A stretch of 64,000 bases of DNA, taken from assembly GCF_000425585.1 (NCBI RefSeq), contig NZ_KE384399.1:354459-418458 (forward strand), given 5' to 3'. The translations under genes were made by a program, and so were the position numbers. Below the pieces are notes generated by a model, which worked only from the letters and a program-made list of their open reading frames with translations, had not been told where the DNA came from and ran no database searches. Positions 17,226-57,494 of the stretch are shown in pieces (positions within the stretch are counted from its first letter, which is position 1; the number at the start of each line of letters is the position of its first letter). This stretch comes from Terrimonas ferruginea DSM 30193 (lineage in GTDB: Bacteria; Bacteroidota; Bacteroidia; Chitinophagales; Chitinophagaceae).

Positions 17226-17678
17226 ATGTTTGTCCGAAAGTATTTTGAAGCGTTTGAAGTGGGTGAACAGCGCCGTACCACCGGCCGTACCATCACCGAA
17301 ACAGATATTGTTGTGCATGCCGGCCAATCCGGCGATTTCTTTCCACATCACATGGATGAAGAATGGTGCAAGACCCAGCCATTCGGCAAAAGAATTGCCC
17401 ATGGCACATTGATCTTCACCGTGGCCGTCGGCCTCACCGCCGATCACATCAACGAAGTATCCATGACCTATGGTTACGAACGCCTGCGTTTCGTTAAACC
17501 CGTTTTTATCGGCGATACCATTCGTGTAACCGTTACCATCAAGGATAAAAAAGATCACAAAAAACCCGCATACGGACTGGTCACCGAGCTCGTGGAATGT
17601 TTTAATCAACATGGTGACCTCGTAATGTTGTGCGAACATTTACTGCTGGTCAGCCGACAAAATTCACCGGCCGCATGA
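17226..17678 (+). CDS. MaoC-family (R)-specific hydratase/dehydratase
   Basis: This 150-residue single hot-dog domain carries the hydratase-2 motif: D37 and H42 are the catalytic pair in [10 protein letters not shown], followed by FGKRIAHG (about 53-60). Family members add or remove water across the 2,3 double bond of a CoA thioester. The acyl group cannot be read, but two CoA-transferase genes in the same operon suggest a CoA-activated hydroxy acid. The stop codon overlaps the next start in an ATGA arrangement (17675-17678), indicating coupled translation. Confidence 0.9.
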
Positions 17679-18826
17679 GTAGGATTCAGTTAAAAGGAAT
17701 TACCTGGGGACACAGCCGTGGCATTACGCCGCTGCTGGCATTGGCACAGCGGTACAACGAACTGCATCCCGATGTGGAAATATCCTGGCGCAAGCGCACC
17801 TTGCAGGAGTTCGCCGATTTTCCCATAGAAAAATTGACGGAAGAATATGACCTGCTGATCATAGATCACCCCTGGGTAGGATGCGCGGCGGCAACCAATT
17901 GCGTGCTTGATCTTTCGCAACATCTTTCAAAAGCCTATCTCGCCGAACAGGAAGCGCATTCCGTAGGTTACGCTCATCTCAGTTATGCATACGGCGGTGG
18001 TCAATGGGCCCTCGCTATTGATGCGGCAACGCCCGTTGCCAGTTACCGCGCCGACCTGATCGGCACAGATATTCCCCAAAAATGGGAGGACGTATTATCG
18101 CTGGCGAGAAAAGGAAAAGTAGCCGTTGCCGCTATTCCCATCGATATACTGATGAATTTTTACACCTTCTGCATCGCCCTGGGAGAAAAACCTTTTCAAC
18201 GCGAAGACGAAGTGGTGAGCGCCGCCATTGGCAAACAGGCCATCGAAACCATGAAAGAATTATACGGCGTCATCGATCGCCGTCTTTTTCAATTTAATCC
18301 CATTGCCGTTGCCGAGTGGATGAGTTCCTCCAATGAAATATGGTATTGCCCGTTTGCCTACGGGTATTCCAATTATTCACGTACGGGCTATGCAAAATAT
18401 TTACTGCATTATACCGATGTTGTCAGCTTTGATAATACGCCTTTGCTGACAACAGTTGGTGGCACGGGCTTGTCTGTTTCCGCTTTCAGCAGGCATAAAG
18501 AAGCCGCGCTTGATTTTACACAGTGGGCCGTATCACCGCTTTGCCAGCAGACAATGTATGTACAGCACGGCGGCCAGCCCGGACATTTGCTGGCATGGCA
18601 GGATCCGCTTGCCAATCAATTGACCCACGATTATTTCACCAATACATTGCCGACGTTGCAACGGGGTTATATCCGCCCGCGCTACAATGGTTACCTGCAT
18701 TTCCAGGACCACGCCGGCGATCCGTTGCAGCAATGTTTGCAGCACAACGGCAATCCTGCAGATGCATTGGAGAAGATCAACAATATTTACCGCGAAAGTT
18801 TAAAAGCCGAGAAACAATTAATATGA
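17675..18826 (+). CDS. Solute-binding-protein-like protein without signal peptide
   Basis: The protein is 383 residues from the ATG that overlaps the MaoC stop. A start 45 bp upstream lies inside the MaoC gene and adds no conserved sequence. The fold resembles family 1 extracellular solute-binding proteins (type II periplasmic-binding fold): [20 protein letters not shown] at the N-terminus, [12 protein letters not shown] (about 67-78), [19 protein letters not shown] (about 133-151) and the late [21 protein letters not shown] (about 264-284). There is no signal peptide or lipobox and no ABC permease or ATPase nearby. It is therefore probably cytosolic and may bind a metabolite or intermediate of the CoA pathway. 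The stop overlaps the next start (ATGA). Confidence 0.7.
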
Positions 18827-19968
18827 ACCCGCGACCCTTAGATGGACTTGTTGTACTGGAGTTCAGCCAGTATTTGTCGGCGCCCTCCGCGGGGCTCCGC
18901 CTGGCTGATCTTGGCGCAAGGGTGATAAAAATAGAACGTCCCGGTACCGGTGACGCAGGCCGCAAACTGGCCATTAAAAATTTATGGGCAGATGACAATT
19001 CCCTGCTCTTCCATACCATCAACCGGAACAAAGAAAGTTTTACCGCCAACCTGAAAGATCCCGAAGAACTGGCGCTGGTACAAAAGCTGATACAAAAAGC
19101 TGATGTGCTCATTCATAATTTCCGTCCGGGTGTAATGGAAAAAACAGGATTGGGGTATGATGCATTGTCTGCATTAAACCCGCGGCTCATTTATGCAGAA
19201 ATTTCCGGGTACGGTAACGCCGGTCCCTGGAAAAATAAACCCGGCCAGGATTTATTATTGCAGTCACTCACAGGACTCACCTATACTACAGGTGACGCAG
19301 ATCAGCAACCGGTGCCTTTTGGTATTGCCATTGCCGATATTCTGTGTGGTGCACAACTGGTGCAGGGTATTCTTGCAGCACTCATCCGCCGGCAGAAGAA
19401 CGGCCAGGGCGCGCTGATACAGGCAAGCCTGATGGAATCCTTACTCGATTTTCAGTTTGAATTACTCACCACTTATTATGCGGATGGTCGTCAGCCGCAA
19501 AGAAGTGCTGTTAACAACGGGCATACTTTATTGAGTGCGCCCTATGGTTTATACCGCACGGCAGATGGTTATCTCGCTTTGGCCATGATGGATATCCAGG
19601 TAATGGGAGAGGCGCTGGAACACCCGCCGTTACTGCGTTTCAATGGCAACCAGGTTTTCAGTGAAAGAGACAGTATCAAGCAGGAGATTGCCACGCTACT
19701 GGCAACAAAACCCACCGCATACTGGTTACAAAAGTTGCAGGCACGCGGCCTCTGGGCAATGGAAGTGCTGAACTGGCAACAGATGCGCGAACACGACGCT
19801 TACAAAGCATTGGAGATGGAACAAACCGTGCATGCACTGGGAAAAGATTTTGTGACTACACGTTGTCCTGTGCGTATCGATGGTCAGCGTTTTACCTCTT
19901 CGCGTCCCGCTCCGCAATTAGGAGAACACCGCGATCGCATTATTGAAGAATTGATTAATCCGTCATAA
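18823..19968 (+). CDS. CaiB/BaiF family (class III) CoA-transferase, copy 1
   Basis: At 381 residues from the ATG overlapping the upstream stop, this is a full-length class III CoA-transferase, the family that moves CoA between carboxylic acids. The catalytic aspartate is in PGQDLLLQ (D143), preceded by [13 protein letters not shown] (about 98-110) and SGYGNAGPW (about 128-136). It is clearly related to the next gene (roughly half of aligned positions identical by eye), so the two arose by duplication. Class III enzymes form interlocked dimers, so the pair may form a hetero-oligomer. Donor and acceptor acids are unknown. Confidence 0.93.
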   Translation: MNPRPLDGLVVLEFSQYLSAPSAGLRLADLGARVIKIERPGTGDAGRKLAIKNLWADDNSLLFHTINRNKESFTANLKDPEELALVQKLIQKADVLIHNFRPGVMEKTGLGYDALSALNPRLIYAEISGYGNAGPWKNKPGQDLLLQSLTGLTYTTGDADQQPVPFGIAIADILCGAQLVQGILAALIRRQKNGQGALIQASLMESLLDFQFELLTTYYADGRQPQRSAVNNGHTLLSAPYGLYRTADGYLALAMMDIQVMGEALEHPPLLRFNGNQVFSERDSIKQEIATLLATKPTAYWLQKLQARGLWAMEVLNWQQMREHDAYKALEMEQTVHALGKDFVTTRCPVRIDGQRFTSSRPAPQLGEHRDRIIEELINPS

Positions 19969-19971
19969 TCT

Positions 19972-21141
19972 ATGCAGCTACTACAGGACATATTAGTTGT
20001 TGATTTCAGCCAGTTTCTTTCCGGTCCTTCGGCGAGTCTGCGACTGGCCGACATGGGAGCCGAGGTGATAAAAATCGAGCGGCCCGATGGCGGTGATATT
20101 TGCCGTCAGCTCTATGTTTCGGATGTGAAAATAGAAGGCGAATCAACCATTTTTCACGCCATCAACCGCAATAAAAAAAGTCTTGCGGCCGATCTCAAAA
20201 ATCCGCACGACCTGGAAAAAATAAAAGAACTGATCCGCCAGGCCGACGTGGTGATGCATAATTTCAGACCCGGCGTCATGGAACGCATCGGCCTGGATTA
20301 TGCGACCGTTCGCCAATTAAATCCTGCCGTGGTGTATGCCGAGGTGAACGGCTACGGCGAAGAAGGTCCATGGAAAGACCTGCCGGGCCAGGACCTGCTG
20401 CTGCAGGCCGTTTCAGGACTGGCCTGGTTGAGCAACGACCAGCAACGTCCGCCTACACCAATGGGTGTGGCGGTGGTGGATATTATGGCGGGTACGCACC
20501 TCACGCAAGGCATTCTTACGGCGCTTTATCGCCGTGGCGTCAGCGGCGAAGGCGGACTGGTACAGGTAAGTATGTTTGAAAGTATTCTTGATTTTCAATT
20601 TGAAGTGCTCACCTGTCACTACAATGATGGGCATGAATTGCCTGTCCGCAGCGCTGTTAACAGCGGACATGCTTATATTGCGGCCCCTTACGGCATTTAC
20701 CGGACGGCCGACGGCTACCTGGCATTGGCAATGGGAAACATATTGGTGCTCGGTGAATTGCTCGGATGTACGCCACTCGCCGCCTTCACGGACTCGCGGG
20801 ACTGGTTCAGCAAACGGGATACCATTAAACAACTACTCGCGGATCATCTGCAAACGGGCACAACGGCCGCATGGCTTACGATCCTTGAAAAAGCAGATAT
20901 CTGGTGCGCACCGGTAATCAACTATGATGAACTGGTAAAACAGGAGGGGTATAAATTACTGGAGATGGAGATAACCGTACAAACCTCCAATGGCCTGGCC
21001 ATCCGCACCACCCGCTGCCCGATCCGCGTGGATGGGATGCGTCTTACGGCAACACAGGGCGCACCCATGCTCGGAGAGCACACCGACGAAATAGAACACC
21101 AATACGGACTGACACCAAAATTGCAGTCAGCCGTCAAATAA
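19972..21141 (+). CDS. CaiB/BaiF family (class III) CoA-transferase, copy 2
   Basis: The 389-residue protein starts 3 bp after copy 1. The catalytic aspartate lies in PGQDLLLQ (D141), with [13 protein letters not shown] (about 96-108) and NGYGEEGPW (about 126-134) before it. Both copies keep the catalytic residue, so neither is an obvious inactive subunit. The duplication could reflect a heteromeric enzyme or two successive CoA transfers. It is followed after 1 bp by the amidohydrolase. Confidence 0.93.
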
Positions 21142-21142
21142 C

Positions 21143-21994
21143 ATGAGCGAACGCATTATCGATACACATCTGCATATATGGGACCTGCAACGGGCGGAGT
21201 ATCCCTGGCTGTCCGGCGATACATCGATATTGAACCGTTCATATGCGATAGATGAAGTAGGAAAGGAACGTGAAGAAGCGGGTGTAACAGAAGCCATATT
21301 GGTACAGGCTTCGGGTAATGCGGAAGATACAGCGTTGATGTTTGAAGCGGCAGCCGCCAACGATTGGATCACCGGTGTGGTGGCCTGGTTGCCCTTGCAG
21401 CAACCGGAAAAGACCGCTGCTCAATTGGATTTGTACCGCAGGAATCCCTTGTTCAAAGGCGTACGCCACCAGATACACGACGAGCAGGATCCGCAATGGT
21501 TGCTGCAACCTGCCGTAATCGAAAGCCTGCAACTATTGGCAAAAGAAAATATTCCTTATGACCTGGTGGGTATCCGCGCTGAGCATATCAGTACGGCATT
21601 GGAGTTATCCGGGCGCGTACCCGGTCTGCGAATGATCTTCGATCATTTGAATCAACCACCGATCGCAAAAGGAGAGAAGTTTGGCGAGTGGGGACAGCTG
21701 ATGCGCCAGGCAGCGGCACTCCCTCAGTTTCACGCCAAGATATCAGGACTGGGGACCACCGCCGGCCGTGGTAAAAACTGGTCAGCGGAGGATATCCGTC
21801 CTTACATAGCATTTATATTGGAGCATTTTGGCACCGGCCGTTGTATGCTCGGAGGAGATTGGCCTGTCGCATTGCTGGCAGGTTCTTATGCGCACACATG
21901 GTCGGTTTACCGCAGGTTGATAAATGAATTGTTGCCCGCACAGGAAGCAACAAAAATTTTCAGTGACAACGCGGCTGCTTTTTATGGTCTGTAA
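21143..21994 (+). CDS. Amidohydrolase family protein (L-fuconolactonase / sugar-lactonase type)
   Basis: This 283-residue TIM-barrel hydrolase belongs to the COG3618 group. Metal-site residues are visible in DTHLHIWD (H9 and H11), in the mid-chain IFDHLNQP, and in the final GGDWPVALL, which carries the catalytic aspartate. Several characterised relatives open sugar-acid 1,4- or 1,5-lactones such as L-fuconolactone and L-rhamnonolactone; others act on 2-pyrone-4,6-dicarboxylate. Between CoA-transferases and a RhaT-type transporter, a deoxy-sugar lactone is a reasonable guess for the substrate. Confidence 0.85.
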   Translation: MSERIIDTHLHIWDLQRAEYPWLSGDTSILNRSYAIDEVGKEREEAGVTEAILVQASGNAEDTALMFEAAAANDWITGVVAWLPLQQPEKTAAQLDLYRRNPLFKGVRHQIHDEQDPQWLLQPAVIESLQLLAKENIPYDLVGIRAEHISTALELSGRVPGLRMIFDHLNQPPIAKGEKFGEWGQLMRQAAALPQFHAKISGLGTTAGRGKNWSAEDIRPYIAFILEHFGTGRCMLGGDWPVALLAGSYAHTWSVYRRLINELLPAQEATKIFSDNAAAFYGL

Positions 21995-22012
21995 AACTGT
22001 TTGTTTAGCTAT

Positions 22013-23056
22013 ATGGAAGTAATGAATGGCATACTGTATCACGCAGTGGGAGCGTCTAGCGCTTCGTTGTGTTATACACCGCAGAAAAAAGTACGGCAGT
22101 GGTCCTGGCAGACTTACTGGCTGGCACAGGCCGCTATATGCTGGCTGGTTTTGCCTGTAGTAGTGGCATTCCTTACCATTCCCCATCTATCGGCAGTATT
22201 GGCTGAAGCTCCTTCATCGGCCATGTATCGGTCCTTTTTACTGGGCATGGCTTACGGCATAGGAGGTACTGCATTTGGTATCGCTATCCGTTATGTTGGT
22301 TTTTCTCTTACGTATGCTATTTCAGTTGGCATCAGTTGCGTATTGGGTACGCTGATACCACCCATCATGAATGGTTCTTTTTCACAGGTGATGGAAAGTA
22401 ACGGCGCCACCAGCATTTTCAGTGGCGTCGCGATGGGCGCCTTAGGTATTGCGCTTTGTGGTATAGCCGGCCGCAGTAAAGAAAAAGACATAGAGAAAAA
22501 ACAATCCGTTAAATCAGATTTCTCCCTTGCCAAAGGATTACCGCTTTGTCTCCTGGCAGGCGTATTGTCCGCCTTCTACAGTTTTTCACTGGATCAGGCA
22601 ACGCCCATCGCCACGATTGCAGAACAACATGGCGCTGGCGGACTGAAAGAAAATGTCAAATATCTTTTTTCCAATACCGGTGCATTTGTAACAACGCTGT
22701 TGTATTGTGTTTACCTGCATATACGTAATCGCACCTGGAAGGAGTACCGTTCCGCAGGCAGCGGATTGGGCAAAAATTATGTCATGGCTATCCTGACCGG
22801 CGTGTTGTGGTACGGCCAGTTCTTTTTTTATGGATTGGGACATGTGCGCATGGAAGCGGGAGGTTATGGTTTTTCCAGTTGGGCAATTCACATGATCATG
22901 CTGGTATTATTCAGTTCCGTTGCGGGATTGTTATTGAAGGAATGGAAAGGATGCAGCACCCGCACCATCCGTTTGCTGATGCTGGCATTGGTGGTATTGG
23001 TAGCAGCGGTATTGCTGCTTACGTATGGTAACTATGAGGCCAGTCAGGCTAATTGA
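22013..23056 (+). CDS. rhaT: L-rhamnose/proton symporter (RhaT family)
   Basis: The protein is 347 residues from the ATG at 22013. A TTG 12 bp upstream is possible but less likely. Ten hydrophobic segments and several blocks match E. coli RhaT closely: GASSASLCYTPQKKVRQWSW, GMAYGIGGTAFGIAIRYVG, the GVLWYGQFFFYGLGH stretch and GLLLKEWKG near the end. RhaT imports L-rhamnose, and related 6-deoxysugars, with protons across the inner membrane. No rhamnose isomerase, rhamnulokinase or aldolase gene is in the window, so here the imported sugar may enter an oxidative route. Confidence 0.88.
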   Translation: MEVMNGILYHAVGASSASLCYTPQKKVRQWSWQTYWLAQAAICWLVLPVVVAFLTIPHLSAVLAEAPSSAMYRSFLLGMAYGIGGTAFGIAIRYVGFSLTYAISVGISCVLGTLIPPIMNGSFSQVMESNGATSIFSGVAMGALGIALCGIAGRSKEKDIEKKQSVKSDFSLAKGLPLCLLAGVLSAFYSFSLDQATPIATIAEQHGAGGLKENVKYLFSNTGAFVTTLLYCVYLHIRNRTWKEYRSAGSGLGKNYVMAILTGVLWYGQFFFYGLGHVRMEAGGYGFSSWAIHMIMLVLFSSVAGLLLKEWKGCSTRTIRLLMLALVVLVAAVLLLTYGNYEASQAN

Positions 23057-23062
23057 TTTTTA

Positions 23063-24124
23063 ATGTCGTTGACCAAAGATATAACGTATTCCATCCCTGT
23101 TTTTATAATAGGAGCCGGTGGCATCGTCAATGATGCGCACCTGCCCGCTTATAAGAAAGCCGGCTTTGCAGTGAGTGGTATTTATGATATTGATAAGGAA
23201 AAAGCACAGGCAACGGCCAATCGTTTTTCTATACAACATGTATATAACAGTATCGGAGAAATGGTGATCGCAGCCAATGAGCAGAAGGTGGTTTTTGATG
23301 TGGCGGTTCCCGGTAATGCCGTGCTGAAAGTATTGGAACAATTGCCTGACGGTGCGGCGGTGCTGATACAAAAGCCAATGGGCGAAACATTTGCCCAGGC
23401 ATTGTCCATCCGTGAGTTGTGCCGGCGTAAACACCTGATTGCTGCCATCAATTTTCAATTGCGCTATGCGCCATTTGTTACGGTGGTGCGTGAGCGTATC
23501 AGGGAAGGCAAGCTCGGTACGTTGGCGGATATCGAGATCAATATCAATGTCTACACGCCCTGGGACCTGTGGGATTTTTTGTCCGGTGCACCGCGTGTAG
23601 AAATTCTTTATCATAGTATTCATTACATCGATCTTATCCGGAGTTTTTTGGGTAACCCGCGTTCCGTATACGCCCGCACTACGCGGCATCCCTCGCAACC
23701 TTCGCTCGCGGCCGTGCGCAGCGACATCATCCTGGACTATGGTGATTGGATCCGGGTGAGCATACATACCAATCATCAACATATGTATGGCGCGGAAGAA
23801 CAGCAGTCTTATATAAAATGGGAGGGTACCGGGGGCGCTGCGAAGGTGGAATTGGGGGTATTGAAAAATTATCCCAATGGAGAACCGGACCGTTTGCGCG
23901 TCACAGACGGCCGGGATGGTCAGCCCAAAGAATGGAAGGATATTGCAACCGGAAGCTGGTTTCCCGACGCGTTTGCCGGTAGTATGGCGGAGTTGATGAA
24001 AGTGGTGATGGGCGAAAAAGACAGACCGGATCATTCCGTGGAAGATTGCATTCATACGATGGCCTGCGTCGAAGCGGCCTATCAGTCAAGTGACGCGGGA
24101 GGTATTCCTCCTCGTGTCGAATAA
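23063..24124 (+). CDS. Gfo/Idh/MocA family oxidoreductase
   Basis: This 353-residue protein has an N-terminal Rossmann domain with GAGGIVNDAHLPAYKKAG (about 14-31) binding NAD(P), and the IQKPMGET motif (about 97-104) whose lysine is usually catalytic. A C-terminal alpha/beta dimerisation and substrate domain follows, with an HSIHYIDLIR segment (about 187-196). Family members oxidise or reduce sugars, inositols and their derivatives. Located 6 bp after rhaT, it could oxidise the imported sugar to a lactone for the upstream amidohydrolase, though other sugar redox reactions are equally compatible. Confidence 0.9.
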   Translation: MSLTKDITYSIPVFIIGAGGIVNDAHLPAYKKAGFAVSGIYDIDKEKAQATANRFSIQHVYNSIGEMVIAANEQKVVFDVAVPGNAVLKVLEQLPDGAAVLIQKPMGETFAQALSIRELCRRKHLIAAINFQLRYAPFVTVVRERIREGKLGTLADIEININVYTPWDLWDFLSGAPRVEILYHSIHYIDLIRSFLGNPRSVYARTTRHPSQPSLAAVRSDIILDYGDWIRVSIHTNHQHMYGAEEQQSYIKWEGTGGAAKVELGVLKNYPNGEPDRLRVTDGRDGQPKEWKDIATGSWFPDAFAGSMAELMKVVMGEKDRPDHSVEDCIHTMACVEAAYQSSDAGGIPPRVE

Positions 24125-24228: not shown

Positions 24229-27200
24229 ATGAAAAAACGATGCTCACTGCTTCGCACAGCCGTACTTGCCCTCGTACTGCTGATGACGCTTTCCGTCGCC
24301 TCCGCCCAGGAGCGAACGGTTTCAGGTACAGTTATTGACAGCGCCTCCGGGCAACCCATCCAGGGTGTCAATGTAACTGTCAAGGGTACAAACACCACTG
24401 TTACAACGAATCCAAACGGCGCCTTCTCCATCGTTGTGCCATCCACACAATCAGTATTGTCGTTTTCTTATGTGGGTTATTCCGCCACAGAAACGCCGGT
24501 GGGTACCAACACATTATTGGCGGTGGCCATGTCCGGTGCTTCCGGCAGCCTCAATGAAGTGGTGGTGATTGGTTACGGCTCGGTACGTAAACGGGACCTG
24601 ACCGGTGCCGTTACCTCGCTCAAAGGCGATGTGATTACCCAAACACCCACCCACAACCCGCTCGAAGCGATCCAGGGACGTGCCGCCGGTATCGACCTTG
24701 TGCGTGCTTCCGGCGCGGCCGGCGCAGGCGTCAACATCAACGTCCGCGGTTTTAAATCCATTGCCGCCACGCGTTCAGACATGGACAAACGCAATGCTCC
24801 GCTCGTGATCATTGATGGTTTCCAGGGTGGCGACCTCTCTACGCTCAATGCCAACGACATCGAATCAATTGAAATCCTCCGCGATGCTTCATCGACGGCT
24901 ATCTACGGTTCGCAGGGCGGTAACGGCGTTATCCTCGTTACTACCAAAAGAGGTGCGGCCGGTAAGATTAAAGTAAACTACGATGCTTATTATGGCATCA
25001 GCACGTTCATGTATCCCAAAGCCAGAACAGGCGAAGATTATATCAACCTGCGCAGACAGGCGTTCCGCACTACCGGCGATTGGGCCAGCCCAACAGACGA
25101 TCCTATTCTTTTTGCCAATCTCGCAGGCGAATATGCAGCCTACCAGGCGGGTGATTGGGTAGACTGGATCGATCTGGTGAGCCGCGACGGCGCACAACAA
25201 AGCCACAATATCTCCATGACGAGCGGCACGGAAAAAACCAAGTTCTATGCTGCAGGCGGATACTTTAATGAAAAAGGTATGCTGCGTGGCAACGATTTCA
25301 AACGTTACAACATGCGCCTCAACGTTGATCAGACCTTGTCGAAAATTGCAAAGGCTGGTGTTACTTCACAGATCACTTACACCAACCTCAATAGCCGCCG
25401 CGATCCGCTCGGCACGGCCATGACCCTGCCTCCGCTGGGAAAACCTTTCAATGACGACGGCACTATCCGCCAGTTTCCGCTGGACAACGATACACGCATC
25501 AGCCCGCTGGCCGATGAAAAGAACGAATTCATTTCCCGCGATAACCTGATCCGTACCAACGTCGTTGCCGGAGCGTATGTAGAACTCACGCCCATCAAGG
25601 GTTTGAGCATCCGCAGTAACCTCGGCACTACCTTCAACTTCAGCCGCCGCGGTACTTACAACGATAAAACATCGCTGGCGCAAAAAGACAACCAGGTTTC
25701 CATCGCATCGCAGACCACCGGTTTCAGCCGTTTCCTCAACTGGGACAACGTGATCACGTATAACAAGAAAATCAACGATCACGCATTTACCGTTACCGGT
25801 ATCACCAGCTATCTGCGCAATGACGAAGATCAGCTGACAGCTACCGGCCGCGGACAGATACTTGCTTCTCAAATCTATTATGGTCTGGCCTCCAGCAGCA
25901 CGGCATTTGTCAGAGACATCTCCTCACCATTTGCCCGTTGGGAAAACATGGCCTACGCTGCCCGTCTCAATTATAGCTTCCGGGGTAAATACATTCTTTA
26001 TTTGTCTGGTCGTTATGATGGTGCATCCCGCCTTTCTCCCGGCAATAAATGGGCATTCTTCCCTGCAGCCGGTCTTTCATGGAACGTAAGCGACGAAGCT
26101 TTCATGGAACGCATCAGTGTGATCTCCAATCTTAAGCTGCGCGCCACTTATGGTGTGAGCGGTAACTATAACATCGACGTGTACGGCACGCAGAGTGGAC
26201 TTACTTATTCTGCACGTATGTCATTCGGTGAAGTGCCGGCACCTGCTTACCTGTTTAATACAACGGTAGGCAATCCCGATCTTGGCTGGGAAAAAACAGC
26301 TACGACCAACATCGGTCTTGACTTCGGTCTGTTTAAAAACCGGATCAGCGGTTCGATCGACGTATTCGATGCACGCACAACGGATATTCTGTACAAACGC
26401 GTATTACCACAATCTTCCGGCGTAACGGATGTATATGAAAACATTGCTGCTACCCGTAACCGTGGTATTGAAGTAATGGTCAATACCGAAAACATCAGCC
26501 GCAAAGATTTCACCTGGACATCCACCCTTACGTTCAGCAAGATCAAGCAGGAGATTTCCGATGTGATCGATGGAAGAAATATTATTCACCCGACGAACTC
26601 GGAGCGTGAATCGCTGCTGATCGGACGCCCGATCACTTCGTTCTACACATTTGTAAAAGACGGTATCTGGCAGGCGGACGAAGCGCAACAAGCGGCTGCA
26701 CTGCGCTATGGCAGCGCAACAGGTAACACGTTCAAACCCGGTGATATCAAACTGCGCGATATTTCTGGTCCCAACGGCGTACCCGATGGCATCATCGATG
26801 CCACCTATGACCGCATGTATGTTGGCTCAACAGTTCCTGATTGGGTAGTGGGATTGCAGAATACCTTCCGTTATAAAAACCTCGATCTGGGCGTATTCCT
26901 GTTTATGCGTTGGGGACAAACGATCGATGCGGAATTCCTCGGACGTTATAACCCCGCAGGTACCGGTAACGGTCCCGCTATGATCAACTACTGGACACCG
27001 GAAAATCCAACCAATGATTTTCCCCGTCCGAGCCGCGGAGCCAACCTGATCAACTATGCCGGTTACCAGGCACTGACATTCGTAGACGGATCGTTCTTCA
27101 AAATCAAGAATGTGACACTCGGATACACACTGCCTGCCACCTGGACAAACAGCATCAAGATGGAGCGTATCCGCGTATATGCTACGGCATCGAACCTGGC

Positions 27201-27309
27201 CGTTTTTGCCAAAAGTCACCTGATCAAAGATTATGACCCCGAGCGTGGAGGAGCTGAATCCAATCCAATCGGCCGTCAATTCGTATTTGGTGTTAACGTA
27301 GGTTTTTAA
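24229..27309 (+). CDS. SusC/RagA-family TonB-dependent outer-membrane transporter 1
   Basis: This 1026-residue protein has a signal peptide (about 1-26), then a carboxypeptidase-regulatory-like beta-sandwich (about 30-105, GTVIDSASGQPIQGVNVTVK). The TonB box region EVVVIGYG (about 110-117) leads into the plug domain with GVNINVRG and the SusC signature SIEILRDASSTAIYGSQGGN (about 216-235). A 22-strand barrel ends in Phe. It imports oligosaccharides with its SusD partner, encoded 9 bp downstream. There is no N-terminal STN domain, so it probably does not signal through an anti-sigma factor. Immediately downstream of the CoA operon, it probably imports the substrate of that pathway. Confidence 0.96.
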   Translation: MKKRCSLLRTAVLALVLLMTLSVASAQERTVSGTVIDSASGQPIQGVNVTVKGTNTTVTTNPNGAFSIVVPSTQSVLSFSYVGYSATETPVGTNTLLAVAMSGASGSLNEVVVIGYGSVRKRDLTGAVTSLKGDVITQTPTHNPLEAIQGRAAGIDLVRASGAAGAGVNINVRGFKSIAATRSDMDKRNAPLVIIDGFQGGDLSTLNANDIESIEILRDASSTAIYGSQGGNGVILVTTKRGAAGKIKVNYDAYYGISTFMYPKARTGEDYINLRRQAFRTTGDWASPTDDPILFANLAGEYAAYQAGDWVDWIDLVSRDGAQQSHNISMTSGTEKTKFYAAGGYFNEKGMLRGNDFKRYNMRLNVDQTLSKIAKAGVTSQITYTNLNSRRDPLGTAMTLPPLGKPFNDDGTIRQFPLDNDTRISPLADEKNEFISRDNLIRTNVVAGAYVELTPIKGLSIRSNLGTTFNFSRRGTYNDKTSLAQKDNQVSIASQTTGFSRFLNWDNVITYNKKINDHAFTVTGITSYLRNDEDQLTATGRGQILASQIYYGLASSSTAFVRDISSPFARWENMAYAARLNYSFRGKYILYLSGRYDGASRLSPGNKWAFFPAAGLSWNVSDEAFMERISVISNLKLRATYGVSGNYNIDVYGTQSGLTYSARMSFGEVPAPAYLFNTTVGNPDLGWEKTATTNIGLDFGLFKNRISGSIDVFDARTTDILYKRVLPQSSGVTDVYENIAATRNRGIEVMVNTENISRKDFTWTSTLTFSKIKQEISDVIDGRNIIHPTNSERESLLIGRPITSFYTFVKDGIWQADEAQQAAALRYGSATGNTFKPGDIKLRDISGPNGVPDGIIDATYDRMYVGSTVPDWVVGLQNTFRYKNLDLGVFLFMRWGQTIDAEFLGRYNPAGTGNGPAMINYWTPENPTNDFPRPSRGANLINYAGYQALTFVDGSFFKIKNVTLGYTLPATWTNSIKMERIRVYATASNLAVFAKSHLIKDYDPERGGAESNPIGRQFVFGVNVGF

Positions 27310-27318
27310 CGAAAAAAA

Positions 27319-29094
27319 ATGTCAACAATGAAACGCATTAAATATCTGCTGCCGGTTTCAGCCTTTGCGCTGGCTTGCCTCGCAGCTCCTTCCTGCAATA
27401 AACTGGAAGAATACAACCCGTCCAATGCAACAGCGGACGCTACCTGGAACACCCCGGAAGGGTTCATCACAGCCGTGAATGCGGCCTATTCCGAACAACG
27501 CTCCTGGTATGGAAAAGAAGACGGTGCCTTCATGTCCGAATCAGGTACCGACCTCTGGTACAACCGCGATAAGAATACCTATGCCCGTCAGCTTACACAA
27601 TATGATGGTCTCACCGCAGCCGACGGCAACCCGCACAAAGCTGCCTGGGTATTGTTGTGGAAAGCGATCAACCAGGCCAATGCCGGCATCAACCGCATAG
27701 ATGGCGCAGGGTTTACCAACGACGCCGAAAAGAACAGAAGACTTGGTGAACTCCGCTTCCTGCGCGGCTTCTACTACTGGCATGTGGTGGAGACATGGGG
27801 TGGTGTGATGTTGCGCACCACAGAAACGCAGTCTCCCGTGCTAACGGCGGTGCGTAGTACCGTGGCACAATTCTATGATCAGATCTTTGCGGATCTGCAA
27901 TTTGCAGCAGACAACCTGCCAAACGAATGGCTGGTAAATGCCAGCACCAATGAATACAGCCGCGCTACCAAAAAATCTGCTTTAGGATTTCTGGCCCGCG
28001 CTTATTTATCCCGCGCTTATTATTCAACCGGCGCCGAAGCGCAGGGCTTTTTCACCAAAGCCCGCGACGTGGCAAACGATGTGATCGCACGTCAGGCCGA
28101 ACTCAAGATCAGTCTCTGGCCCAGCTATGCCGAACTCTTCAATCCCGCCCGTAATAAAGACATGGGAAAAGCAGGCGGAGAAGCGTTGTATGTGATCAGT
28201 AATTCCGTTAACCCCGGTCTGAACTATGACGACAACGGTAACCGTTTGTTTCATGTGTATCAGGCGCCTTACATGGGGAAGCCCGGATTGATCCAGAGTC
28301 TTGCTTATGGCTATGAAAACAACCGCCGCCTGATGCCTTCGCTGAGCCTGTTGAATTATTACAATGAAAATATCGACTCGCGTTACGAAGGATCGTTCCA
28401 GGAAGTATGGCTGGCGAATGCCACTACCACCTTCACCTGGACGGCAGCACAGGCCACTACTTATCAGAAAGATGCCAGTGTGATCGGTAAGACCATCGCT
28501 CCCGGCGATACCGCCATGCTGATCACCAAACAAGTGATTGCAGATAAAGCAACACGCAAATACGTGGTGTATGACCGCAATGATGTATACAATACAGACG
28601 GCACAATCAAGACCGGTAACAACTATGTATCGTTGCGCAAATTCCGTGACCCGGATCGCAGTGCGCCCAACGTACAGGCCGGAACAAAAGACGTGATCGT
28701 AATGCGCCTGGCGGAAATGTACCTGATTTCAGCAGAGGCGGAATTTCAGTTGAACAGTCCCGGTACAGCAGCTACACGCATCAACGTGTTACGCACGCGG
28801 GCGGCCAAACCCGGACAGGTAGCGGCCATGCAGGTGACTGCCGGTGACATCACCATTGATTTCATTCTCGAAGAAAGAGCCAGGGAACTTGCAGGAGAAA
28901 ATATCCGCTGGTTTGATGTGAAGCGCATTAAAAACGGGCAGAACGGGGCGGAAGCATTTTCGGCTTACATCAAAAGAAAAAATCCCGATGTCAATAAGGT
29001 CCAGGACTTCCATCGTCTTCGCCCCATTCCCATCGCGGAAATGCAGGCATTGCAAAATGCAGCGGAGTTCGGTCAAAATCCCGGATACCAGTAA
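27319..29094 (+). CDS. SusD/RagB-family nutrient-binding lipoprotein 1
   Basis: This 591-residue lipoprotein pairs with the preceding SusC. The lipobox A-A-P-S-C places the acylated cysteine at residue 26 from the first ATG. A second ATG three codons in (27328) is an equally good start. The SusD helical TPR-like core is seen in RRLGELRFLRGFYYWHVVE (about 133-151) and ALGFLARAYLSRAYY. The C-terminal RagB signature is VMRLAEMYLISAEAE, then FILEERARELAGENIRWFDVKR. It caps the transporter and binds glycans at the surface. A strong terminator follows. Confidence 0.96.
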   Translation: MSTMKRIKYLLPVSAFALACLAAPSCNKLEEYNPSNATADATWNTPEGFITAVNAAYSEQRSWYGKEDGAFMSESGTDLWYNRDKNTYARQLTQYDGLTAADGNPHKAAWVLLWKAINQANAGINRIDGAGFTNDAEKNRRLGELRFLRGFYYWHVVETWGGVMLRTTETQSPVLTAVRSTVAQFYDQIFADLQFAADNLPNEWLVNASTNEYSRATKKSALGFLARAYLSRAYYSTGAEAQGFFTKARDVANDVIARQAELKISLWPSYAELFNPARNKDMGKAGGEALYVISNSVNPGLNYDDNGNRLFHVYQAPYMGKPGLIQSLAYGYENNRRLMPSLSLLNYYNENIDSRYEGSFQEVWLANATTTFTWTAAQATTYQKDASVIGKTIAPGDTAMLITKQVIADKATRKYVVYDRNDVYNTDGTIKTGNNYVSLRKFRDPDRSAPNVQAGTKDVIVMRLAEMYLISAEAEFQLNSPGTAATRINVLRTRAAKPGQVAAMQVTAGDITIDFILEERARELAGENIRWFDVKRIKNGQNGAEAFSAYIKRKNPDVNKVQDFHRLRPIPIAEMQALQNAAEFGQNPGYQ

Positions 29095-29320: not shown

Positions 29321-32044
29321 ATGAATAGTTGCCGCCGTTTCGCGTTCGTTTTCCTGTTACTGATTACTGTTACCCATATTGCCCGGGCCGGTTTGAATCC
29401 AATCCGGATCGTACTGGTTGTAGAGAACAATGCCGCTCCCCGCGTAGCGTTTGGTGTGGAAAAACTCAGCGAAGCGCTGCAGCAACATGGATACATTGTT
29501 GTAAAAGCTAAAGCGGGACAAAAAACACGCGACCGTATCATTCAGATAACACTCGCTTCTTCCGGCAAGAAAGAAAGCTTTGCCATCAAAACGGATGGCA
29601 AAGGCAAATTAGTCATATCCGGCGCCGACGCATCAGGTATACTTTACGGATGTCTCGAAGTCGCAGACAGAATCCGCGCACAGGGTACACTGCCCGATAC
29701 CATCAATTTCAGCGATGCGCCTGAAATGGTCCTGCGCGGTGCCTGTATCGGTGTACAAAAACCTTATTACCTGCCCGGGCGTACCGTATACGAATATCCT
29801 TACACCCCCGAAACATTTCCCTGGTTATACGACAAAGAACATTGGGTGCGCTACCTCGATACACTCGTCACCAACCGCATGAACTCGTTGTATCTCTGGA
29901 ACGGTCATCCCTTCGCTTCGTTGGTGCGGCTGAAAGATTATCCTTATGCAGTGGAAGTGGATGATGCCACTTTTCGCAAGAACGAGGAAATGTATAAGTT
30001 CCTGACCACGGAAGCAGATAAAAGAGGTATATGGGTGATACAAATGTTTTACAACATCATCGTATCAAAACCATTTGCCGAAAAACATAACATGAAAACG
30101 CAGGAGCGTGAACGTCCGATTATTCCAATCATCGCCGATTATACCCGCAAATCCATCGCAGCATTCGTAGAAAAATATCCCAACGTGGGACTGATGGTTT
30201 GCCTCGGTGAGGCCATGGAAGGCGTGGGCCATGATGACATTGAATGGTTCACTAAAACCATTATTCCCGGTGTGAAAGATGGATTGGACGCATTGGGCAA
30301 AACGGAACAACCTCCGATCGTGCTTCGTGCGCACGACACCGACGCACCTGCCGTCATGCGTGCTTCTTTGCCTTTATATAAAAATCTGTATACCGAAGCC
30401 AAGTTCAACGGCGAAGCGCTCACAACACCCGAGCCGCGTGGACAGTGGGCAGCCTTGCACCGTGAACTCAGCGGACTGGGATCCGTGCAGATAGAGAACA
30501 TTCACATTCTCGCCAACCTCGAACCGTTCCGTTACGGCTCTGCAGATTTTATTCAGCGATCTGTCATCGGTATGCATGACAGCATGGGCGGTAATGGTCT
30601 TCACCTTTATCCGCAGGCATCATACTGGGACTGGCCTTATTCTGCTGATAGTGTAAAAGGCGGCAAACGTCTCTTGCAGATCGAGCGCGACTGGATCTGG
30701 TACCGCGCCTGGAGCCGTTATGCCTGGCATGCCCGCCGCGACCGCAAAGAAGAGATTAATTATTGGAGTGGCTTGCTGGCTGCCCGTTACGGGTGCGCAC
30801 CCGGAAACGGACAACAAATTCTCGAAGCATACGAACAATCAGGAGAGATCGCGCCCAAACTGCTGCGCCGCTTTGGTATTACCGATGGCAACAGGCAAAC
30901 ATTGACATTGGGTATGCTCATGACGCAACTGATCAATCCTTTCCGTTACGGACTGTTTACTTTGTTGTATGATAGTGAAAGCCCGGAAGGAGAAATGCTG
31001 ATTCAATATGCGGAAAAGGAATGGAAAAAAGAAAAACATATCGGTGAAACGCCTGTGCAAATCATTGCAGAAGTAAAAGAGCATGCGCGTAAAGCAGTGG
31101 CCGCCGCTGAAGCCGCCGCTGCCGGTATCACCCAAAACAAGGAAGAATTTGAGCGGCTGAAAAATGATATGTATTGCTACCAGGCATTGGCTTTTCATTT
31201 TGCTTACAAAGCTGAAGCGGCCTTGTCCATATTACGATACAAATATTCCAACGATGTAACGGACCTGGAAAAAGCATTGCCCCTATTGGAGAAAAGTGTA
31301 GACTATTATCGCGAGCTGGCAAAACTGACCAGCAGTTCTTACCTGTATGCCAATAGTATGCAGACGGGTCAGCGAAAAATCCCCATCCGCGGAACCGACG
31401 GCAAAATGAAAACATGGACAGAAGTGTTGGTGCCCTTTGAAGGAGAACTCACGCATTTCCGGCATGCTGTTGATTCATTAAAAAACAAACCTGCAACAGG
31501 AGTCAAGATAGTGGAAGTCCGCGCCGCTACGGTGAAGCTGGCCGATGCAGGGCTGAAAAGATTCAAACTTGCTGCGGGTCAATCAGCTTTCAGCGATACA
31601 GTTGCGCTTACGGGTAAGTTCACGCCCGAGCTGGCCCGTATGGAAGGTGTACAACTCAACTGGCAGAAGCAGATCGAACAGGGAACACAACTCACCTTTA
31701 CGACCGATAAACCGGTGAAAGTGCTGGTCGGTTATTTCAAAAAACGCCAGGCAGCCTTCAGCGGACCGTCGGTGTACCTGAAAGCCCCCGAACTGGAAAC
31801 CAACGCGAGCGCTAATGACTACGGGCAAGCGGATATCAGAATAGCCAATGCATTGGTGGTAAAAGGACAGCCCCCGGTGAACATTCACACGTATAGTTTT
31901 CCGGCGGGTACGCACACATTGAAACTGGCGAAAGGTGTTTGCATGATCGTTGGTTTTGCCGAAGGATCAAGTGAGGTGCCGGTGTTTGACGCCGGGCTTA
32001 CGGAAAATGGCAGCAGCCGCGAGATTGACTGGCTTTTTGAATAA
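29321..32044 (+). CDS. GH138-like protein (alpha-galacturonidase type), secreted
   Basis: The protein is 907 residues with a signal peptide (about 1-23). An N-terminal alpha/beta domain (about 25-130) resembles those of GH20/GH67-type enzymes, with the KLVISGADASGILYGCLEVA segment. A barrel-like catalytic region follows, with candidate acids E297 in VCLGEAMEG and E359 in LYTEAKFNGEA, spaced as expected for a glycosidase pair. A helical region (about 440-700) and a C-terminal beta-sandwich (about 730-900) follow. Overall order and size suggest GH138, known for removing alpha-linked galacturonic acid from rhamnogalacturonan-II. This rests on remembered features, not an alignment. It has its own operator-linked promoter. 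Confidence 0.55.
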   Translation: MNSCRRFAFVFLLLITVTHIARAGLNPIRIVLVVENNAAPRVAFGVEKLSEALQQHGYIVVKAKAGQKTRDRIIQITLASSGKKESFAIKTDGKGKLVISGADASGILYGCLEVADRIRAQGTLPDTINFSDAPEMVLRGACIGVQKPYYLPGRTVYEYPYTPETFPWLYDKEHWVRYLDTLVTNRMNSLYLWNGHPFASLVRLKDYPYAVEVDDATFRKNEEMYKFLTTEADKRGIWVIQMFYNIIVSKPFAEKHNMKTQERERPIIPIIADYTRKSIAAFVEKYPNVGLMVCLGEAMEGVGHDDIEWFTKTIIPGVKDGLDALGKTEQPPIVLRAHDTDAPAVMRASLPLYKNLYTEAKFNGEALTTPEPRGQWAALHRELSGLGSVQIENIHILANLEPFRYGSADFIQRSVIGMHDSMGGNGLHLYPQASYWDWPYSADSVKGGKRLLQIERDWIWYRAWSRYAWHARRDRKEEINYWSGLLAARYGCAPGNGQQILEAYEQSGEIAPKLLRRFGITDGNRQTLTLGMLMTQLINPFRYGLFTLLYDSESPEGEMLIQYAEKEWKKEKHIGETPVQIIAEVKEHARKAVAAAEAAAAGITQNKEEFERLKNDMYCYQALAFHFAYKAEAALSILRYKYSNDVTDLEKALPLLEKSVDYYRELAKLTSSSYLYANSMQTGQRKIPIRGTDGKMKTWTEVLVPFEGELTHFRHAVDSLKNKPATGVKIVEVRAATVKLADAGLKRFKLAAGQSAFSDTVALTGKFTPELARMEGVQLNWQKQIEQGTQLTFTTDKPVKVLVGYFKKRQAAFSGPSVYLKAPELETNASANDYGQADIRIANALVVKGQPPVNIHTYSFPAGTHTLKLAKGVCMIVGFAEGSSEVPVFDAGLTENGSSREIDWLFE

Positions 32045-32179: not shown

Positions 32180-33745
32180 ATGAAAAGAATATTCTTTGTT
32201 GCAGTACTGCTGACATCCGCCACAATCCTCCACGCGCAGGGCTGGTACGATGTAACGAAATTCGGAGCGAAGCGCGACAGCTCGGCGAAAGCAACCGCCG
32301 CCATCGCCAAAGCCATTGCCGCTGCCTCCAAAGCAGGCGGCGGTACGGTTTATTTTCCCGCAGGGAAATATCTCACCGGTCCCATACACCTGAAAAGTAA
32401 CATCACTATCCACATCGATGCGGGCGCCGAATTACATTTCAGCGACAACTTCGACGATTACCTGCCAATGGTAGAGACACGGTATGAAGGGGTAGATGTT
32501 ACCAGCTTTTCCCCGCTATTCTACGCTTACAAAGCAGAGAACATTACCATCACCGGACGCGGGCTGATCGATGGACACGGAAAGAAATGGTGGGATTTTG
32601 TAGAAGGATATAAAAATGGTCAACCCCGTTCACGTTGGCAGATACTATTCGATAGTTTGAATAAAAACATCCTGCTGCCGGATGATCCCAAACAAATGAA
32701 ACGCGGTTTTTTACGTCCGCCTTTCATTCAACCGATGTTTTGTAAAAATGTGTTGATCGAAGGCATCAGCATCCGCAATTCACCTTTCTGGACCGTCAAT
32801 CCACAGTTCTGTGAAAATGTAACGGTGAAAGGCGTAACGATCAACAATCCGCCTTCACCCAATACGGACGGTATTAATCCGGAGTCTTGCAAGTATGTAC
32901 ATATTTCCGATTGTCATATCAGCGTGGGCGATGATTGCATCACTATTAAATCCGGAAAAGATATTCCCGGCCGAACAAAAGCCGCGCCGGCACAGAATTA
33001 CACCATCACCAACTGTACCATGCTTTCAGGACACGGCGGCGTGGTGATCGGCAGCGAGATGAGCGGCGGCGTTAAAAATATTGTGATCAGTAATTGCGTA
33101 TTTGATGGCACGGATCGCGGTATCCGTATCAAGACCACCCGCGGCCGGGGCGGCGTAGTGGAAGATATCCGTGTCGATAACATCATCATGAAAAATATCC
33201 GCGAACAGGCAATCGTGCTCGATATGGCTTATTCCAAAACAACACCTGAACCTGTTTCCGAACGCACGCCAAAATTCCGTAACATCCGGTTGAGCAATAT
33301 CACGGCTTATACAAAGGAAGCTATCTTTATCAACGGGCTGGACGAAATGCCGGTGCAGGAATTCAGCATCCAGGATGCGTATTTTGAAGCAGAAGCCGGT
33401 ATCATCATCCGCAAGGCAAAAGATATCGAATTGAAAAACGTACGTATTGCCACAACGCGCGGGGCGGCCATCGATGTAAGCGAAACCGAGCGCATCGATA
33501 TAGATGGTTTGAGTTCGGTACAGGTGCGTGACAGCCTGCCGCTGATCCAGTTGAATGATGTGAAGCAGGCGGTGATCCGCAACAGTTGGCCGCAACAGGG
33601 GACGACACGTTTTGCCGAAGTAAAAGGAGCAAAAACAACACAGGTTATTTTCCATAATAATATTTTGCCGCAGGCAGCACCCGGTATTCAGATCAATGGA
33701 GATGTGCCTGCAAAAGCCGTTACTATTTCTTCATCCGTTAATTGA
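32180..33745 (+). CDS. GH28 family polygalacturonase-like hydrolase
   Basis: This 521-residue secreted enzyme has a signal peptide (about 1-20, ending HAQ) and a pectate-lyase-like right-handed beta-helix. All GH28 active-site motifs are present: NTDG (D230), GDD (D251 and D252), SGHGG (H285) and RIK (316-318). GH28 enzymes hydrolyse alpha-1,4-linked galacturonic acid in pectin backbones by inversion; some act on rhamnogalacturonan. Start is the only Met before the signal peptide. The gene is 6 bp from the GH95 gene and heads a run of five tightly spaced glycosidases. Confidence 0.95.
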   Translation: MKRIFFVAVLLTSATILHAQGWYDVTKFGAKRDSSAKATAAIAKAIAAASKAGGGTVYFPAGKYLTGPIHLKSNITIHIDAGAELHFSDNFDDYLPMVETRYEGVDVTSFSPLFYAYKAENITITGRGLIDGHGKKWWDFVEGYKNGQPRSRWQILFDSLNKNILLPDDPKQMKRGFLRPPFIQPMFCKNVLIEGISIRNSPFWTVNPQFCENVTVKGVTINNPPSPNTDGINPESCKYVHISDCHISVGDDCITIKSGKDIPGRTKAAPAQNYTITNCTMLSGHGGVVIGSEMSGGVKNIVISNCVFDGTDRGIRIKTTRGRGGVVEDIRVDNIIMKNIREQAIVLDMAYSKTTPEPVSERTPKFRNIRLSNITAYTKEAIFINGLDEMPVQEFSIQDAYFEAEAGIIIRKAKDIELKNVRIATTRGAAIDVSETERIDIDGLSSVQVRDSLPLIQLNDVKQAVIRNSWPQQGTTRFAEVKGAKTTQVIFHNNILPQAAPGIQINGDVPAKAVTISSSVN

Positions 33746-33751
33746 TTGCGT

Positions 33752-39500: not shown

Positions 39501-40032
39501 TCTTGAAACGGATGAAAACGGCGGTAAGTCATACACCTTATACCGGCACAGGCTGCGAGCTACGCGCATGCTCAAACTGAGCAACGTTACCGGTCCGGTA
39601 ATCCTTGTGCCGGTATCGACCATGCAGCCGGCTTTCGATCTGAAGAAAACAATACCTTATCGCGCAGAAAAAGCGACTCTTTCCACAGGCGTCGCAATGG
39701 AATCATTCGGCGGTCGCAACTGCGCTGTCATAAAAGTTAACGATCCGGTGAAAATAGCGTGGACCATTGAAACCGGCGTTGCCGATGTATACGCATTGAC
39801 ATTTAAATACTATTCACCACAGGAAAAAAATATCAGGGGACGTATAGAGGTAAGAGATGCCGGCAACACGTTGCTGGTAGATAAAGAAGTAGACCTTGAT
39901 TTTACGCGTCCCGGCAAATGGAACCAGTTTACATTTGATACGGGTACGCAGATCAATGCGGGAAGTTATAAAGTGATCTTTCATACATCCGGTGCAGCGG
40001 GCATTGCTGTTTCGGGAATTGAAATACAATGA
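36553..40032 (+). CDS. GH2 family glycosidase with malectin-like and C-terminal carbohydrate-binding-like modules
   Basis: At 1159 residues this is longer than typical GH2 enzymes. After a signal peptide (about 1-19) come a sugar-binding sandwich, an immunoglobulin-like domain and a TIM barrel. The acid/base glutamate is in GLQNES (about 427) and the nucleophile in VGEYGAW (about 496). The next part contains VYIVSHTWPGRW and a YSNCTEVELF module, then a malectin-like domain at about 765-895 (YSIELYFTEPWLGIG). Two further beta-rich segments reach the end. Likely substrate is a beta-linked galactose, galacturonic or glucuronic acid branch of pectin. It is coupled to neighbours by 1- and 4-bp overlaps. 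Confidence 0.85.
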   Translation: MKTWFCFLVFCLCCAATEAQRVSTRLDDNWLTIAGDMHTLPASQYAAASIETKNWKKVSVPHNWDAYEGYRRLLHGNRHGEAWYRRSLRIGQSLKNKRALLFFEGAGSYATVYLNGRQVGYHAGGRTSFTIDITEVVKKDNQENILTVYTGHPANIRDLPWVCGGCSEERGFSEGSQPMGIFRPVHLVITSDISFAPFGIHAWSGEDVNKEKAVLRVRTSFKNKATANRKVTLVTRLVNQEGKIITTISSQHSVKPLDSIDVDQQPVTVTAPRLWSPADPYLYKIISELRDEKGVLDKIETDYGFRKIKWDSSSHRFFINDQPLFINGVAEYEHIIGQSHAFSDLQVEARMRWLQSAGFNAFRDGHQPHNLRYGQWCNRMGVLWWTQLSAHVWFDSPAFRENFKTLLKEWVIERRNDPAVILWGLQNESKLPEDFARECTELIRSLDPTASVQRLVTTCNGGSGTDWDVPQNWTGTYGGDPATYANDLKRQVLVGEYGAWRTIDLHTEGPFVQNGPLSEDRMTELMEQKVRLAESAKDSLAGHFFWLLTSHDNPGRVQGGEGWRELDRIGPVNYKGLLTPWEEPLDVYYMYRSNYADPVTQPMVYIVSHTWPGRWTKPGIKNGITVYSNCTEVELFNDLDNASLGRRKRNGIGTHFTWDHVNIQYNVLYAVGYRDGRPVARDTIVLNHLPQAPGLKKFYEKQPDITTPQKGSHYWYRVNAGGPAYMDKLGQRWMADQVWEGKGIWGSQSWTKQFPGLPDFFASQRRTFVPLKGTKDPELFSTFRYGRDELTYHFPAPAGEYSIELYFTEPWLGIGGGTDAKGMRVFDVAVNGKVVLKDLDIWKEAGSNKVLKKIITAQSANSELIISFPRLTAGQAVISAIAIATKKPPKLKARELSLATIHSPSNVSTEHWLDIGQQVFADTSISFNALPPAVFGAQWIKPASPDPQSYHFSVTKPTDVYVAIDTLKMVKDEWKEFENTQTFLETDENGGKSYTLYRHRLRATRMLKLSNVTGPVILVPVSTMQPAFDLKKTIPYRAEKATLSTGVAMESFGGRNCAVIKVNDPVKIAWTIETGVADVYALTFKYYSPQEKNIRGRIEVRDAGNTLLVDKEVDLDFTRPGKWNQFTFDTGTQINAGSYKVIFHTSGAAGIAVSGIEIQ

Positions 40033-42734: not shown

Positions 42735-42743
42735 TTGAGTTGC

Positions 42744-57489: not shown

Positions 57490-57494
57490 TTGAT

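Follow-up and report, generated by a model that had tools for sequence, protein, structure and literature searches.

The primary cell walls of plants contain rhamnogalacturonan II (RG-II), whose breakdown has reportedly been worked out to the level of glycosidic bonds; in Bacteroides thetaiotaomicron the system is one that we take to comprise GH137-GH143. Side chain B of RG-II carries the methyl sugar 2-O-methyl-L-fucose (MeFuc). Inside the cell, L-fucose and L-rhamnose can be degraded oxidatively by an L-fucose dehydrogenase (FucDH), a lactonase, a dehydratase, a 2-keto-3-deoxy acid dehydrogenase and an FAH-type hydrolase, with which the 6-deoxyhexose route ends. Another dehydration, that of carnitine by CaiB/CaiD, combines a class III CoA-transferase with a crotonase. 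Our literature searches found no paper on a CoA-based sugar pathway of the kind described below and none on the intracellular fate of RG-II methyl sugars. Here we analysed a stretch of 64,000 nt from Terrimonas ferruginea DSM 30193 (NZ_KE384399.1, positions 354,459-418,458 of the forward strand; hereafter the window), in which seven adjacent genes encode two class III CoA-transferases together with a hydratase, a lactonase, an importer, an oxidoreductase and a binding-protein-like protein. They represent a conserved, uncharacterised catabolic module; our leading interpretation, as yet unproven, is that it serves the use of MeFuc through CoA-dependent dehydration with demethoxylation.

The operon lies entirely on the + strand. 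It begins with a MaoC-type hydratase (17226-17678; PF01575, E 1.5e-25) and continues with a cytosolic solute-binding-protein-like protein (SBP, 17675-18826; PF13416), class III CoA-transferase 1 (CoAT1, 18823-19968; PF02515, E 3.2e-100), class III CoA-transferase 2 (19972-21141; PF02515, E 8.4e-99), a fuconolactonase-like lactonase of the amidohydrolase-2 family (21143-21994; PF04909), a RhaT-type deoxysugar/proton symporter (22001-23056, with a possible ATG start at 22013; PF06379, 203 bits) and a Gfo/Idh/MocA oxidoreductase, proposed to be a sugar 1-dehydrogenase (23063-24124; PF01408 and PF02894). The SBP gene starts at 17675, within the end of MaoC, and 4-bp overlaps could be read at both the MaoC/SBP and the SBP/CoAT1 junctions. 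The remaining gaps are 3, 1, 6 and 6 bp, the third becoming 18 bp with the ATG start of RhaT. The seven genes thus form a genuine, tightly coupled operon, and the families, the 4-bp overlaps and the gaps of 1-18 bp named in the original prediction were confirmed in the window sequence.

Like CaiB/CaiD, the module would pair a class III CoA-transferase with an enzyme of enoyl-CoA-hydratase type to dehydrate a 3-hydroxy acid with cycling of CoA. It differs in its MaoC fold, a crotonase being confined to some of the related loci, in having two CoA-transferases and a partner that is SBP-like, in the proposed sugar-acid substrate and in the RG-II setting. With the oxidative L-fucose/L-rhamnose pathway it has the lactonase family in common, and mutarotase, SDR and FAH genes occur in related loci, the latter two elsewhere in the genome of the window. 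Unlike in that pathway, CoA enzymes are present, and most modules of Bacteroidota have no neighbouring dehydratase of the usual UxaA or enolase type.

We next consider how widespread the grouping is, with locus counts taken from hidden Markov model matches on all open reading frames (L and G numbers below are our handles for loci and genomes). An SBP together with a CoA-transferase was found in 92 loci, two of which have one and the same SBP; loci without a detected CoA-transferase were dropped, and removal of a duplicate (L073, the same as L033) leaves 91 distinct module loci. The order of the seven window genes recurs in 23 of the 92 loci, the window included, and is therefore not due to chance; in 12 of these 23 (12/92) GH138 follows directly. 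The commonest operon, SBP-CoAT-CoAT-SBP2-Gfo-MaoC-FucP, accounts for 30/92 loci, where SBP2 is a second SBP-like gene and FucP another type of importer. The core that is found repeatedly in Bacteroidota, Paenibacillus and rhizobia consists of the SBP-like protein, one or more class III CoA-transferases, Gfo/Idh and MaoC, and the SBP gene overlaps or abuts a class III CoA-transferase gene in Bacteroidota, Alphaproteobacteria, Variovorax, Streptomyces and Paenibacillus. MaoC, Gfo and CoA-transferase stand together in 85/91 distinct loci. SBP relatives were present in 19/395 sampled Bacteroidota genomes, limited in that sample to four families (f1, f3, f5 and f24), in at least 559 genome stretches, 80 of which were kept, and in 145 plasmid records, 90 of them from Sinorhizobium; no relatives were found in phage records. 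The claim that these activities are rarely seen together thus does not hold; what sets the grouping apart is not rarity but that it is uncharacterised.

The module is tied to RG-II-type loci. In the window, the operon runs into a SusC/SusD pair (24229-29094; TIGR04056, 818 bits; PF07980) and a pectin locus, as had been proposed, and this polysaccharide utilization locus (PUL) is moreover RG-II-like. Next to SusC/SusD lies a GH138 alpha-galacturonidase of RG-II type (29321-32044; 1463 bits against NF049878, cut-off 1300, a model that we take to represent this RG-II-type family), followed by the pectin/RG-II-type glycosidases GH28, GH95, GH2-malectin, GH78 and GH2 (32180-45197) and by Apiosidase, GH43-like and BT_1020-type propeller proteins (56089-60272; PF13204, PF04616 and PF24067), all on the + strand. 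The assignment of these families to RG-II derives in part from work on Bacteroides thetaiotaomicron, whose RG-II system resembles the window PUL in GH138, the apiosidase, the BT_1020-type protein, GH78, GH2 and GH95, while GH137 and GH139 counterparts are encoded elsewhere in the Terrimonas genome (L240); the difference is that the latter has a dedicated cytosolic CoA module. A DUF3826 protein (45347-46051) separates one half of the PUL from the other, and relatives of it lie beside the modules of L054 and L057.

Across loci, RG-II-type markers (GH137, GH138, GH139, GH141 or BT1001-like GH78) were present in 56/91 module loci versus 1/54 control loci, the controls being FAH loci of module-less genomes that span no more than 18 kb and in some cases stop at contig ends, against up to ~21 kb for module loci. 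By family, with overlaps, the marker loci hold GH137 (13), GH138 (15), GH139 (2), GH141 (25, a family that may not be RG-II-exclusive) and BT1001-like GH78 (7). In one locus (L091 2-2479, - strand) a GH141-type protein and a C-terminal L-rhamnose mutarotase (rhaM) domain form one polypeptide. The single marker-positive control (L183) belongs to genome G206 and also contains GH139. This genome (L183, L246) encodes GH139, Gfo, FucP, FucDH, SDR and FAH, with no SBP match at E 1e-20 and no CoA-transferase or MaoC match beside Gfo and FucP, and looks like a case of partial module loss.

A more specific link is that to GH139, the 2-O-methyl-L-fucosidase family. A weak match of DUF5703 to PDB entry 9hmb (E 0.001, 41 residues) gave the clue, and the identity of PF18961 (DUF5703_N) with GH139 follows from that entry, 9HMB, and from the data statement of PMC12282258; other glycosidase neighbours matched GH78 and GH95 relatives in the PDB. 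GH139 was found in 15/19 module genomes, in 2/55 FAH-positive genomes without the module and in 5/80 others (15/19 versus 2/55, Fisher p 2.5e-10, uncorrected for the kinship of the genomes), and in 7/10 module genera. It lies on the module contig in 14 of the 15 genomes, within 40 kb in 11 of them. In L069 and L076, GH139 (183 and 170 bits) and GH29 are inside the module operon itself, and in L022 GH139 is one small open reading frame upstream of SBP. Two genomes (G138 and G080) show a single-strand run SBP-CoAT-CoAT-SBP2-Gfo-MaoC-FucP-GH106-GH139-FucDH-ADH, in which unlabelled genes separate GH106 from GH139 and ADH is a zinc alcohol dehydrogenase. The genome of the window has PF18961 at 364.7 bits (G000:C2:456559-457416), 83 kb downstream on the same contig, in a locus (L240) that also holds GH137 and in which GH139 is followed, after an unlabelled stretch, by FucP, lactonase and FucDH. 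A PRK10083-like zinc alcohol dehydrogenase, beside FucDH and lactonase in L036 (7620-8633) and its relatives, may, we presume, serve L-galactonate from RG-II L-galactose.

The module also travels with the end of the oxidative 6-deoxyhexose route. An FAH-type hydrolase is encoded in 16/19 module genomes versus 55/376 others, and near the module, with a partner SDR, in Flavobacterium-type and rhizobial loci. In the window genome, SDR and FAH are on contig C21; this FAH scores 363.7 bits against NF053535 (cut-off 500), a cut-off exceeded in 0/19 module genomes and 0/14 controls. No match to UxaA, enolase-type, IlvD or UxuA dehydratases was found beside this SDR-FAH pair (L173), and the UxaA of the genome is on another contig. 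In canonical Bacteroidota clusters, a UxaA-family dehydratase stands beside SDR and FAH (L178-L181, L237-L239); this UxaA/galactarate-dehydratase-family gene may be the L-fuconate dehydratase of such clusters. Four Flavobacterium-type genomes (G222, G324, G316 and G170) have both a UxaA cluster and a second FAH in a module locus that lacks UxaA, which suggests a parallel acid beyond the reach of UxaA-type or enolase-type enzymes; in a fifth genome of this type (G025) the canonical cluster is present and the module stretch lacks FAH. UxaA-type and enolase-type dehydratases require that the 2-hydroxyl be free, so that 2-O-methyl-fuconate would qualify as the parallel acid.

We then examined the individual proteins. 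The best NCBIfam match of the window MaoC is the hydratase end of PaaZ, at 108.6 bits and far under the whole-protein cut-off, and its D-x4-H spacing is that of PaaZ D561/H566; a match to mesaconyl-CoA hydratase is sub-threshold, and the best PDB match (4ffu, 181 bits) is an uncharacterised protein. The Asp/His pair typical of MaoC-type hydratases is present, within a GD-x2-P-x-H-x-D motif found in 82/86 members of the cluster. By these comparisons, the PaaZ hydratase domain, which acts in oxepin-CoA ring opening, is the closest characterised relative. In PMC6739347, the domain belongs to an enzyme that opens the ring of a CoA thioester, D561 and H566 being the proposed catalytic pair. The likeness thus extends to the CoA thioester and the active-site spacing, the difference being that the window MaoC is a stand-alone protein of 150 aa in a sugar context, without aldehyde dehydrogenase fusion.

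Both CoA-transferases are covered by PF02515 over their full length (7-371 and 4-371) and keep the class III Asp motif, as GIAIAD in the first and GVAVVD in the second; the motif, whose Asp we take to be the catalytic Asp169 of formyl-CoA transferase, was matched in 174/183 members of the cluster. Their PDB relatives are YfdE and succinate-hydroxymethylglutarate CoA-transferase for CoAT1 and formyl-CoA transferase 10uh (211 bits) for CoA-transferase 2. Domain and motif place both proteins among the class III (CaiB/BaiF) CoA-transferases, with predicted activity. By the same kind of evidence, the amidohydrolase (PDB match 4dlf, 111 bits) is assigned to the L-fucono-1,5-lactonase family and not to its equivalog, as it scores 168.6 bits against NF052480 (cut-off 400). 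RhaT matches the Pfam family, its best NCBIfam model being that of the L-rhamnose/proton symporter equivalog (NF010024), at 316 bits against a cut-off of 468.

The SBP-like protein has a predicted structure of high confidence (pLDDT 93.7) with a MalE-like fold (6dtq, TM 0.81). It has neither the export signal nor the cognate permease of a periplasmic ABC solute-binding protein: no signal peptide was seen by eye in its N-terminus, and a Pfam search found no ABC permease among the operon genes. Lacking both, it was ruled out as a component of membrane transport. Because of the MalE fold and the many invariant residues in an alignment of 41 sequences, its probable role is to bind the sugar acid on behalf of the CoA-transferase. 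SBP relatives without a CoA-transferase adjoin mannonate-dehydratase-like or enolase-superfamily genes (L028 14998-16170; L077, L079, L080, L083), and the SBP-like protein may thus partner sugar-acid enzymes more generally. SBP2 is likewise cytosolic and very divergent (15% identical). It excludes the lactonase: on the same strand and within 7 kb of SBP, 52 of the 91 loci have SBP2 only, 32 lactonase only, none both and 7 neither.

From this gene context we infer the substrate, each reaction and the role of the SBP-like protein. The operon is quite possibly, if short of probably, the cytosolic part of MeFuc catabolism by aerobic plant-matter degraders. MeFuc freed by GH139 would be imported by RhaT, or by the FucP-type importer in other lineages, and oxidised at C1 by Gfo/Idh or FucDH, and the amidohydrolase would open the lactone to 2-O-methyl-L-fuconate. 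One CoA-transferase would then load CoA onto this acid, held by the SBP-like protein. A CoA thioester acidifies the C2 proton, and MaoC enzymes, a family of (R)-specific hydratases, eliminate a 3R-hydroxyl; MaoC could accordingly take the C2 proton and the 3R-hydroxyl to leave 2-methoxy-enoyl-CoA. The ring opened by PaaZ is an enol ether, and PaaZ-like chemistry on 2-methoxy-enoyl-CoA would therefore release methanol: MaoC would hydrate the enol ether, methanol leaving and 2-keto-3-deoxy-fuconyl-CoA staying. A CoA-transferase would hand the CoA to the next acid, and free 2-keto-3-deoxy-fuconate would be oxidised by SDR and cleaved by the FAH-type hydrolase to pyruvate and L-lactate. The outline put forward originally, from import through oxidation, lactone opening and CoA loading to dehydration, agrees with the families and their conserved grouping, its steps being predicted. 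A rare rhamnogalacturonan sugar acid had been named as a candidate substrate, which is borne out in part: the RG-II link is clear, but a methyl sugar is a better candidate than an acid.

Derivatives of L-fucose and L-rhamnose have the 3R configuration, D-xylose the 3S. This difference could explain the related loci in which a crotonase is present and MaoC absent near the SBP/CoA-transferase pair (L029-L031, L047, L048). A tentative and somewhat unlikely extension is a catabolic route for 2-O-methylated sugars, comprising CoA activation, beta-elimination, PaaZ-like enol-ether hydrolysis by MaoC and an SBP-fold partner of the CoA-transferase, with (R)-MaoC for 3R and crotonase for 3S sugars. Of the two methyl sugars in RG-II, 2-O-methyl-L-fucose would then fall to MaoC and 2-O-methyl-D-xylose to the crotonase variants. 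Two loci, L023 and L049 (one from a marine Persicobacter), combine the module with genes for GH29 and sulfatase-like proteins, so that the substrates may also include another sugar of the fucose type.

Several points weigh against the assignment to MeFuc. GH139 is absent from 4/19 module genomes, few module loci have it adjoining the module, and its co-occurrence is here inseparable from general RG-II use; of two GH139 proteins studied, one was inactive in the published assay. MaoC enzymes normally hydrate the beta carbon, enol-ether hydrolysis being extrapolated from PaaZ, and an aldonyl-CoA with a free 4-OH may lactonise. Enolase-type dehydratases lie beside the module in rhizobial clusters and in G214 (L161). 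Finally, no recognised dehydratase was found at any fetched FAH locus in 8/16 module versus 21/53 module-less genomes (55 minus G096 and G267), a genome-level count without discrimination, on which we rejected the idea that the module replaces a missing fuconate dehydratase.

A related alternative is the CoA-dependent dehydration of a plain aldonate, L-fuconate or perhaps L-galactonate, in which CoA-transferase and MaoC would stand in for an enolase-, IlvD- or UxaA-type dehydratase without any demethylation. We consider this unlikely, though it accounts for several local observations. Flavobacterium-type loci hold FucP, FucDH (351 bits, cut-off 300), lactonase, SDR and FAH and no recognised dehydratase. 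Counting by locus discriminates better than counting by genome, since a dehydratase was found in only 2/22 module loci with FAH, although most of the 22 are close kin: a weak UxuA-like match in L090 and an enolase-type gene that lies beyond L034 and was seen in L161. In a subset of 14 of these loci, the only dehydratase-type match is weak and UxuA-like (1/14). In G343, the three enolase-superfamily matches look, by length and coverage, like an epimerase, a MenC-like protein and an enolase; the IlvD family is represented by one gene, and the only UxaA of the genome is in another locus near GH28. Yet a UxaA cluster with SDR and FAH is already present in five Flavobacterium-type genomes plus G033 and G214, where making that product a second time at the expense of CoA would be redundant. 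Moreover, a recognised local dehydratase is also missing from 21/53 module-less FAH genomes, and the GH139 link would be left unexplained.

It is less likely still that the substrate is another RG-II-specific sugar, above all aceric acid, which is already carboxylic, or 2-O-methyl-D-xylose, with the CoA-transferases loading a carboxylate as mesaconate and glutarate enzymes do. The marker frequency in module loci would suit such a sugar, as would the best NCBIfam matches of the CoA-transferases, which include succinate-glutarate and succinyl-CoA:mesaconate enzymes, and a match of MaoC to mesaconyl-CoA hydratase, all of them under cut-off. Against this, the rhaM-type mutarotase, SDR and FAH of rhizobial and Flavobacterium-type clusters fit 6-deoxyhexoses, and the labelled module genes include no branched-acid lyase.

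That the CoA-transferases and MaoC act on a separate acid, an acyl substituent or lactate, and are merely co-regulated with the sugar genes appears improbable, as MaoC, Gfo and CoA-transferase keep together in very different surroundings, even though the roles of the SBP-like proteins and Gfo are putative and SBP relatives pair with mannonate-dehydratase-like genes in two loci without CoA-transferase (L028, L083). In Sinorhizobium meliloti, the L-fucose-binding protein described in PMC3454389 is SMc02774, an SMc locus, and not the module locus on pSymB (about 731-755 kb in strain 1021).

L-Rhamnose, taken up by RhaT and processed via rhamnono-lactone, rhamnonate and CoA as the original prediction had it, is highly improbable despite the RhaT family in the operon and the GH78 and GH106 rhamnosidases near many modules, because 17/19 module genomes, that of the window included, hold a RhaD-type rhamnulose-phosphate aldolase/dehydrogenase over cut-off, the importer of other lineages is of FucP type (365 bits, cut-off 280), and the glycosidases inside the most compact operons are GH139, GH29 and GH95-like; rhamnose isomerase (PF06134; 8/395 genomes, 0 module genomes) is uninformative for the substrate.

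If the MeFuc assignment is true, a widespread uncharacterised gene set of soil Bacteroidota, Paenibacillus and rhizobia would gain a function, and sugar demethylation would gain a CoA-based chemistry. The SBP-like proteins, which carry annotations as binding proteins of ABC transporters or as extracellular ones, would in that case be cytosolic catabolic partners.

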